Source of the DNA: Succiniclasticum ruminis DSM 9236
GTDB taxonomy: Bacteria > Bacillota > Negativicutes > Acidaminococcales > Acidaminococcaceae
Direction: 5' to 3'
Assembly (NCBI RefSeq): GCF_900112895.1
Contig: NZ_FONL01000004.1
Span: 1 to 64,000 of the forward strand
Length of the DNA: 64,000 nucleotides
The position numbers were made by a program, and so were the translations under genes. Positions 408 to 41,510 of this stretch are shown piece by piece. Under the pieces are notes generated by a model. That model did not search any database and was not told where the DNA came from. It saw only the letters and a program-made list of their open reading frames with translations. Numbering within the stretch: the first letter of the stretch is position 1; each line of letters opens with the position of its first letter.

Positions 408-436
408 TTTACAGAAGAGTAATAATCATGTATAAT
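408..436 (+). promoter_or_regulatory. Sigma-A promoter of the queT-queF transcript
   Basis: TTTACA (408-413), a 17-bp spacer and a perfect TATAAT (431-436). The predicted start near 443 lies about 18 nt upstream of the candidate preQ1 aptamer, as expected for a leader RNA. Confidence 0.7.
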
Positions 437-460
437 AAATAAACATTAAAATTTCATAAC

Positions 461-500
461 AGACAGTTCGTGACCATCCTGTCTCTAAATAAAACTACGG
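461..500 (+). promoter_or_regulatory. Candidate preQ1-I riboswitch aptamer
   Basis: The layout fits the small preQ1-I class. P1 pairs GACAG (462-466) with CTGTC (479-483). The loop holds TTCGTGACCATC, and an A-rich tail ends AAAACTACGG. CGTG in the loop can pair with TACG in the tail to make the pseudoknot. The aptamer lies between a promoter and an intrinsic terminator, ahead of queT and queF, which handle preQ1. An alternative partner for GACAGT is ACTGTC at 517-522, a possible switching element. The class call rests on hand alignment; the gene context is the strongest support. Confidence 0.68.
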
Positions 501-567
501 GCGCAATTGAACAGATACTGTCAGAGGATTTTGCCAATATAAGTCTGTGCAATGCATTAATAATTTA

Positions 568-592
568 CGCCTATAGTTATAGGCGTTTTTTT
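568..592 (+). terminator. Intrinsic terminator, likely riboswitch expression platform
   Basis: CGCCTATA (568-575) pairs with TATAGGCG (578-585), followed by seven T. No coding gene lies between the promoter at 408-436 and this site, so it terminates a leader RNA about 150 nt long. This is what a transcriptional preQ1 switch would need. Confidence 0.75.
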
Positions 593-28302: not shown

Positions 28303-28654
28303 GGGGGTGTAAAGGCTTCGACGGGTATAGGTGGTGTACGATAAGCGAGCCGTGGTTCCATCAGCACGTTAAACGGTGGACGTTTAAATTTAAACGCAGA
28401 TAACGAATTAGCACTGGCTGCTTAATTAAAGCAACCCGTTCTGTCATTCCGGCTCCCGCAGGAACGGCAAGAACGTCACTTAGCGGGATCGTCTGAGAGC
28501 AAGGTTCGTAGCTCCGGATTAAATCTTACGAACTAGTGAAGGTACAGCCGGTCGGCAGGCGGTGCCGGAGCGAAACACAATATGCTGTCTGCGCTCGGAG
28601 AAAGTTGTATAACAATATGTTCGGACGAGGGTTCGACTCCCTCCACCTCCACCA
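28303..28654 (+). ncRNA. ssrA: Transfer-messenger RNA
   Basis: The 352-nt RNA has an alanine-type acceptor stem, GGGGGTG (28303-28309) pairing with CACCTCC (28644-28650), then ACCA encoded at the 3' end. The 5' GGCTTCGACGGG motif and the 3' T-arm GGTTCGACTCC are standard. The tag frame ends at TAA 28423-28425. It encodes ...ADNELALAA; a GCA resume codon at 28396 is the natural guess, though the frame stays open upstream. The one-piece (not permuted) form works with SmpB and RNase R. Confidence 0.97.
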
Positions 28655-38036: not shown

Positions 38037-38113
38037 TGGTCGGGGCGGCGAGATTCGAACTCACGGCCTCTTGTACCCGAAACAAGCGCGCTACCAAACT
38101 GCGCCACGCCCCG
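38037..38113 (-). tRNA. tRNA-Pro (CGG)
   Basis: The 77-nt cloverleaf on the minus strand closes with acceptor CGGGGCG/CGCCCCG, and discriminator A plus CCA are encoded. The D-arm has AGTTTGGTAGC, the anticodon stem is CTTGT/ACAAG with loop TTCGGGT (anticodon CGG, G at position 37), and the T-arm has GTTCGAATC. Confidence 0.96.
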
Positions 38114-41433: not shown

Positions 41434-41510
41434 GCTCGGATAGCTCAGTTGGTTAGAGTGCTGCCCTCACATGGCAGAGGTCCAGGGTTCGAGCCCCTGT
41501 CCGAGTACCA
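41434..41510 (+). tRNA. tRNA-Val (CAC)
   Basis: The 77-nt tRNA closes with GCTCGGA/TCCGAGT, with discriminator A and CCA encoded. The anticodon stem CTGCC/GGCAG carries loop CTCACAT (anticodon CAC). D-arm AGCTCAGTTGGTTAGAG and T-arm GGTTCGAGCCC are standard. A TATAAT at 41408-41413 may be its promoter. Confidence 0.96.

Follow-up and report, generated by a model that had tools for sequence, protein, structure and literature searches.

A predicted class I type I preQ1 riboswitch with a termination platform ahead of queT-queF in Succiniclasticum ruminis

The window analyzed here, the first 64,000 nucleotides (forward strand) of contig NZ_FONL01000004.1 of Succiniclasticum ruminis DSM 9236, carries near its start a leader followed by queT and queF, which a sequence-only reading had described as a preQ1-I riboswitch controlling both genes. 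The question raised by this locus is whether the leader holds a preQ1 aptamer and, if so, through which RNA structure it would act on the genes downstream. Comparison with related leaders supports an aptamer with conserved contact bases and a terminator, as well as an alternative fold in which the aptamer tail pairs with the terminator and covaries with it.

Layout of the queT-queF locus

Positions 1-298 of the window correspond to the end of an rRNA operon (the end of the 23S rRNA and the 5S rRNA), separated from queT-queF by a strong terminator at 303-335; the same placement, immediately after an rRNA operon, recurs in the related leaders L004 and L009, where 5S rRNA was matched. From 5' to 3', the promoter (408-436) is followed by a compact stem-loop (461-500) whose tail is rich in A, then by a long spacer, the terminator (567-593), queT, and queF. 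The features considered below are the following:

408-436, + strand: promoter, with -35 TTTACA, a 17-nt spacer, and -10 TATAAT; transcription start expected at about 443
461-484, + strand: aptamer hairpin, with P1 at 461-466/479-484 and the loop (L1-L2) at 467-478; basis: R1 model, P1 covariation, contact bases
485-503, + strand: A-rich L3 and 3' tail, with the contact bases A494 and C495 and the CUA of P2; 493-503 doubles as the predicted 5' strand of the antiterminator
506-553, + strand: spacer hairpin filling the gap in the antiterminator loop and containing 517-522; basis: predicted fold of transcript 437-580
567-593, + strand: intrinsic terminator, stem 567-574/579-586, T tract from 587; found after the aptamer in most relatives
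568-578, + strand: predicted 3' strand of the antiterminator, made of the terminator 5' arm and loop; basis: matched versus permuted duplexes, covariation
671-686, + strand: conserved block complementary to aptamer positions 464-466 and 469-477 (anti-aptamer)
713-717, + strand: queT Shine-Dalgarno sequence AGGAG, outside the aptamer
723-1235, + strand: queT, predicted component of an ECF-type preQ1 importer (Pfam PF06177 QueT, E 1.6e-24)
1347-1844, + strand: queF, preQ0 reductase forming preQ1 (Pfam PF14489, E 8e-34; NCBIfam TIGR03139 preQ1 synthase, E 3e-53)

Every element named in the sequence-only reading was recovered, to within one or two bases. The TTTACA-17-TATAAT promoter was present at 408-436, where 11 of 12 bases matched and a similar -35/-10 pair preceded the aptamer in close relatives; promoter-like sites showed no enrichment in the region (one found, 3.0 expected). 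The terminator, given earlier as 568-592, was correct to within 1-2 bases, its stem being followed by the T run, and terminator-like sites numbered seven in the region against 0.9 expected. The claim of a preQ1 transporter and a preQ1-forming enzyme downstream agreed with the Pfam and NCBIfam matches of queT and queF. The host genome also encodes queC and tgt, so that repression by preQ1 of both its uptake and the last step of its synthesis makes sense.

Leaders nearly identical to that of the window came from genomes of uncultured Succiniclasticum and Acidaminococcaceae. The genome of the window also encodes, at L002 (G000:C27:337686-338105), a second and distant QueT-like protein (29% identity, E 2.6e-4), and the preQ1 aptamer model had no match near that gene. 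Elsewhere in the window, a tmRNA gene was located at 28303-28654 (Rfam, 179 bits) and tRNA genes at 38040-38113 (- strand) and 41434-41507 (+ strand).

The aptamer and its type

The Rfam PreQ1 model gave no match at its cut-off, nor any up to an E-value of 10 in a 3-kb scan. When 81 bases were scanned, RF00522 aligned from its first to its last position (1-45), with 4 nt inserted after P1, and scored 12.5 bits (E 1.5) against a cut-off of 39, while preQ1-II and preQ1-III, whose architecture differs from that of the window aptamer, had no match in permissive-threshold Rfam scans of the leader. Since the RF00522 score alone was weak, queT homologues were collected by protein search (73 loci, 234 kb in total) and their upstream regions were inspected. 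A stem-loop of the same form was found upstream of queT, on the same strand and within 1 kb, in 70 of the 73 loci, with no further aptamer match elsewhere in the 234 kb on either strand. A covariance model (R1) built from 30 aptamers, all from outside the family of the window, scored the window aptamer at 64.3 bits (E 5.2e-17; runner-up 15.2 bits) as the sole significant match in the entire genome. Within the family, 43 of 59 genomes had an R1 match, as did 76 of 200 across the class. RF00522 passed its own cut-off in none of the 200 genomes of the class; its shortfall is class-wide, and the Rfam model misses the window switch together with its relatives.

The stem itself is well conserved. 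P1 consists of GACAG (462-466) and CTGTC (479-483) plus the pair A461-U484, encloses a 12-nt loop (467-478), and is followed by the tail AAAACUA (491-497). Across 30 distinct sequences 98.9% of the P1 cells were paired, and two pairs changed on both sides (A-U to G-C and A-U to U-A), giving a covariation score reached in none of 500 shuffles. The overall fold energy of 455-600 was unremarkable (z -0.6) and is uninformative. The preQ1-I aptamer placed at 461-500 by the sequence-only reading is borne out by the R1 score, by the stem-loops at the queT loci, and by the compensatory changes in P1. That reading had named as contrary evidence the lack of a covariance hit together with the lack of a conserved stem in related queT leaders; the Rfam PreQ1 match stayed below threshold, and the stem was retained in those leaders.

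Type features were taken from PMC8752633 and PMC11625349. Type I preQ1-I aptamers carry UU above the P1 5' strand, UC before the P1 3' strand, and a CUA tail, and contact two stacked preQ1 molecules through U6, U7, U16, C17, A30, and C31 (PMC8752633, PMC11625349). Equivalents of all six contact bases, mapped from PMC8752633, are present in the window as U467, U468, U477, C478, A494, and C495, and the positions G466, U467, U468, C469, A473, U477, C478, and C479 have the identical spacing of G5, U6, U7, C8, A12, U16, C17, and C18. Compared with the type I RNAs of PMC8752633, PMC11625349, and PMC12519234, the window shares the equivalents of U6, U7, U16, C17, A30, C31, C8, and A12 and an equal hairpin spacing; the UU, UC, and CUA tail are common to it and the type I aptamers of Carnobacterium antarcticus, Haemophilus influenzae, Neisseria gonorrhoeae, and Listeria monocytogenes queT, the last of which also has queT as its target. 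The A-rich L3 (A491-A494) followed by CUA that characterizes type I was found in the window, in the tail A494-C495-U496-A497, its L3 being 3 nt longer than that of C. antarcticus by residue count. In 33 aligned aptamers, the closing pair G466-C479, U467-U468, and U477-C478 were invariant or nearly so. The equivalents of A12-U32, A473 and U496, were conserved as well, while P2, the putative H-type pseudoknot helix of the tail, is very short in type I and showed no covariation; the folding tools used cover pseudoknot-free structures. The signature is that of type I and not of type II, which has AC before the P1 3' strand. The comparison confirmed that the observation is real, with 461-503 reading as a preQ1 aptamer of class I, type I, that precedes queT-queF. 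By its contact bases, its ligand is very likely preQ1 and, by analogy with other type I aptamers, each aptamer probably binds two molecules.

Terminator, alternative pairings, and rival readings

The predicted partner of the aptamer tail is the terminator. The tail AACUA-C-GGGCG (493-503) and CGCCU-A-UAGUU (568-578) form 10 pairs with one C.A mismatch, and the duplex energy was -13.3 kcal/mol as computed in L003, whose two strands equal those of the window. In a permutation test of 75 distinct leaders, with relatives unweighted for phylogeny, the true tail-terminator combinations had a mean of -9.7 kcal/mol against -8.6 (sd 0.26) for permuted ones, and one of 20,000 permutations was as low. 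The tail motif ACUA-N-GG has a variable N that is tracked by its terminator partner (C-G in 22 leaders, A-T in 6, G-C in 5, T-A in 1, and G-T in 3), with the C.A mismatch as the chief departure, found in 8-9 leaders, mostly of Succiniclasticum and including the window, and fixed in the genus. In L101, L111, and L114, CCGTAGT at the top of the terminator is the exact complement of ACTACGG. The pairing covaries across Negativicutes, Clostridia, and Synergistota.

Predicted ensembles were consistent with this arrangement. For transcripts ending at 576-580, P1 had a probability of 0.98 and the antiterminator one of 0.79-0.93 (0.93 for 437-580), while at end 588 the terminator dominated (0.95). Among truncated leaders of relatives, 59 of 84 had a tail-type antiterminator with more than four expected pairs, the mean being 6.6 against 2.0 in dinucleotide shuffles and the window reaching 9.3 against 0.5. 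The earlier suggestion of an intermediate structure in the long spacer fits the hairpin predicted at 506-553 inside the antiterminator loop. By computation, the leader combines an intrinsic terminator with a mutually exclusive antiterminator. In the full-length transcript the terminator was about 3 kcal/mol better than the antiterminator, a comparison made with tools that cover pseudoknot-free folds. As the terminator is the more stable fold after its complete transcription, the choice must be made kinetically, and ligand-free read-through would depend on kinetics.

The pairing of 493-503 with 568-578 is likely the switch, replacing the helix proposed earlier, and the leader very probably acts as a class I type I preQ1 riboswitch that represses queT-queF through premature transcription termination. 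When preQ1 is scarce, the tail would be free as the polymerase reaches about 575-584 and would pair with 568-578, allowing read-through into queT, encoding the importer, and queF, whose product makes preQ1. When preQ1 is bound, the pseudoknot (P2 and L3) would hold the tail, as known structures suggest, and the 5' arm of the terminator would then pair with its own 3' arm, so that transcription would stop near 590.

Four other explanations were weighed against this termination mechanism. The sequence-only reading placed the switch in an alternative fold of the preQ1-I aptamer, between the P1 5' strand GACAGT (462-467) and ACTGTC (517-522). The hexamer is present where it was described, the 6-bp match is exact in the window, and folding predicts the helix for a transcript that ends at 530; in the full-length ensemble it has a probability of 0.28. 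However, its conservation is poor: ACTGTC was kept exactly in none of the 11 relatives compared, and four retain, at that position, a version weakened by GU. For transcripts cut off ahead of the terminator 3' arm, the pairing of the P1 5' strand with the spacer had a probability of 0.00, and, as the helix makes no contact with the terminator, a further link would be needed. A switching role for this helix is very unlikely; the core of the sequence-only reading, in which a preQ1-I riboswitch acts on queT-queF through premature termination, is strongly supported, and the helix is not. A preQ1-I aptamer acting on queT translation and not on transcription would follow the type I RNAs of PMC8752633, PMC11625349, and PMC12519234, which regulate translation, and the Veillonella aptamer of the same kind, which runs into the queT Shine-Dalgarno sequence. 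In the window, however, that sequence lies more than 200 nt downstream, behind a terminator with a covarying antiterminator, and forcing the aptamer to fold left the accessibility of the start region undiminished, which makes translational control very improbable.

A same-fold aptamer could also sense a related ligand (preQ0, queuine, or guanine) in place of preQ1, as the gene set handles preQ0 as well as preQ1; yet the contact bases match those of type I RNAs that bind preQ1, and queT with queF suit feedback by preQ1, leaving such a ligand scarcely probable. Finally, the low Rfam score (12.5 bits, E 1.5) and the ordinary fold energy of 455-600 (z -0.6) would suit a chance hairpin next to an ordinary terminator, with no riboswitch at all. 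This is contradicted by the E-value of 5e-17 from an independent model, by the 70 of 73 queT loci, and by the compensatory changes, and we consider it exceedingly improbable.

A conserved block between the terminator and queT may add to the termination mechanism. Block 671-686, which reads GUGGUUACGUCCUGAU in the window, is common to seven Succiniclasticum leaders (the window, L003-L006, L008, and L010) within an otherwise diverged untranslated region. In each of the seven, none of 200 shuffles matched the aptamer as well, and, judged by eye, substitutions largely keep the pairing through G-U/G-C or A-U/G-U changes. Its second half (680-686) is also complementary, less consistently, to queT codons 2-4, and the block is transcribed after the termination decision. 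A gating of the queT start codon was rejected, the start region remaining as accessible with the aptamer forced and the predicted fold holding both helices side by side; a coding origin is unlikely, as candidate reading frames upstream of the block, judged by eye, were not conserved. Possible roles include a cis lock on the aptamer in the read-through mRNA and a trans target of the terminated leader. We consider it doubtful, although conceivable, that after read-through 671-686 forms a second layer by pairing either in cis with the aptamer or in trans with the terminated leader once released, tuning queT-queF translation or stability according to preQ1; if true, a single aptamer would govern decisions at the transcriptional and the post-transcriptional level alike.

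Relatives, known systems, and significance

Other genes found downstream of the aptamer in relatives are queuosine genes too, namely queC, queF, a radical-SAM gene next to a transporter-like gene, and the queE region. In L099, L101, L103, L111, L114, and L116, the aptamer and a tail-type antiterminator precede a radical-SAM gene with a weak NCBIfam likeness to an archaeosine radical-SAM enzyme. In L099 and L114, a gene for a COG1738/QrtT-like membrane protein comes after it; this pair is possibly the queuine-salvage pair QueL-QrtT, as described in C. difficile. In L012, L014-L016, L021, L106, and L107 (Acidaminococcaceae, Phascolarctobacterium and others), the aptamer is situated ahead of a queC-like gene, directly followed by queT in L012-L021, and P1 is often GACTG/CAGTC, a compensatory change. 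The aptamers of L147, L148, and L149 have a longer loop (TTCGTTTGTACCATC). Two of them, those of L147 and L148, are followed at a distance of about 500 nt by a queE-like radical-SAM gene, and in these two the terminator is complementary to the loop rather than to the tail.

Such loop-type leaders are the less common kind, 24 of 77 when judged by duplex energy, and in them the terminator matches the aptamer loop and the P1 3' strand, for example CCAUCC/GGAUGG. They include those of Phascolarctobacterium faecium and Pyramidobacter as well as L147 and L148 of the queE region. Since shuffles often reach a loop-type match, the loop antiterminator is only suggestive as a second platform. In Veillonella (L022-L032, L034), the aptamer ends in ACTAAGGAG, overlapping the queT Shine-Dalgarno sequence; these leaders had neither a tail-type nor a loop-type antiterminator, and the tail runs straight into the ribosome-binding site, which reads as a translational arrangement of the same aptamer and the same gene.

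Regarding known systems, the predicted platform of the window, a terminator with a tail antiterminator, differs from that of the type I RNAs of PMC8752633, PMC11625349, and PMC12519234, which are translational; among these, transcript levels were reportedly unchanged in C. antarcticus, and the Listeria queT type I riboswitch is translational (PMC8752633, PMC11625349, PMC12519234). The likeness is to the class I type II que riboswitch of Bacillus subtilis, in which the A-rich L3 joins the antiterminator and preQ1 favors the terminator (PMC11625349), whereas that RNA, which binds a single ligand, has AC instead of UC ahead of the P1 3' strand, and the window has an extra spacer hairpin between aptamer and terminator. 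The mechanism would be that of a textbook termination riboswitch like B. subtilis que, on a type I aptamer. Likewise, preQ1-II and preQ1-III riboswitches have been described upstream of queT (also PMC11625349). It is quite possible that type I aptamers ahead of terminators were predicted earlier, and the combination is not claimed as new; judged by its sequence features, the window RNA is a known kind of riboswitch that Rfam misses.

With this finding, a known riboswitch class comes to include a large set of bacteria of the gut and rumen, for which Rfam PreQ1 yields nothing above its cut-off. It also offers a testable case in which a dual-ligand type I aptamer, elsewhere translational (PMC8752633, PMC11625349, PMC12519234), would be coupled to termination. 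Among the relatives, a nearly invariant aptamer is joined to varied platforms, namely a tail antiterminator, probably a loop antiterminator, and an overlap with the ribosome-binding site, and one aptamer with different platforms makes this group a good comparative system for the evolution of expression platforms.
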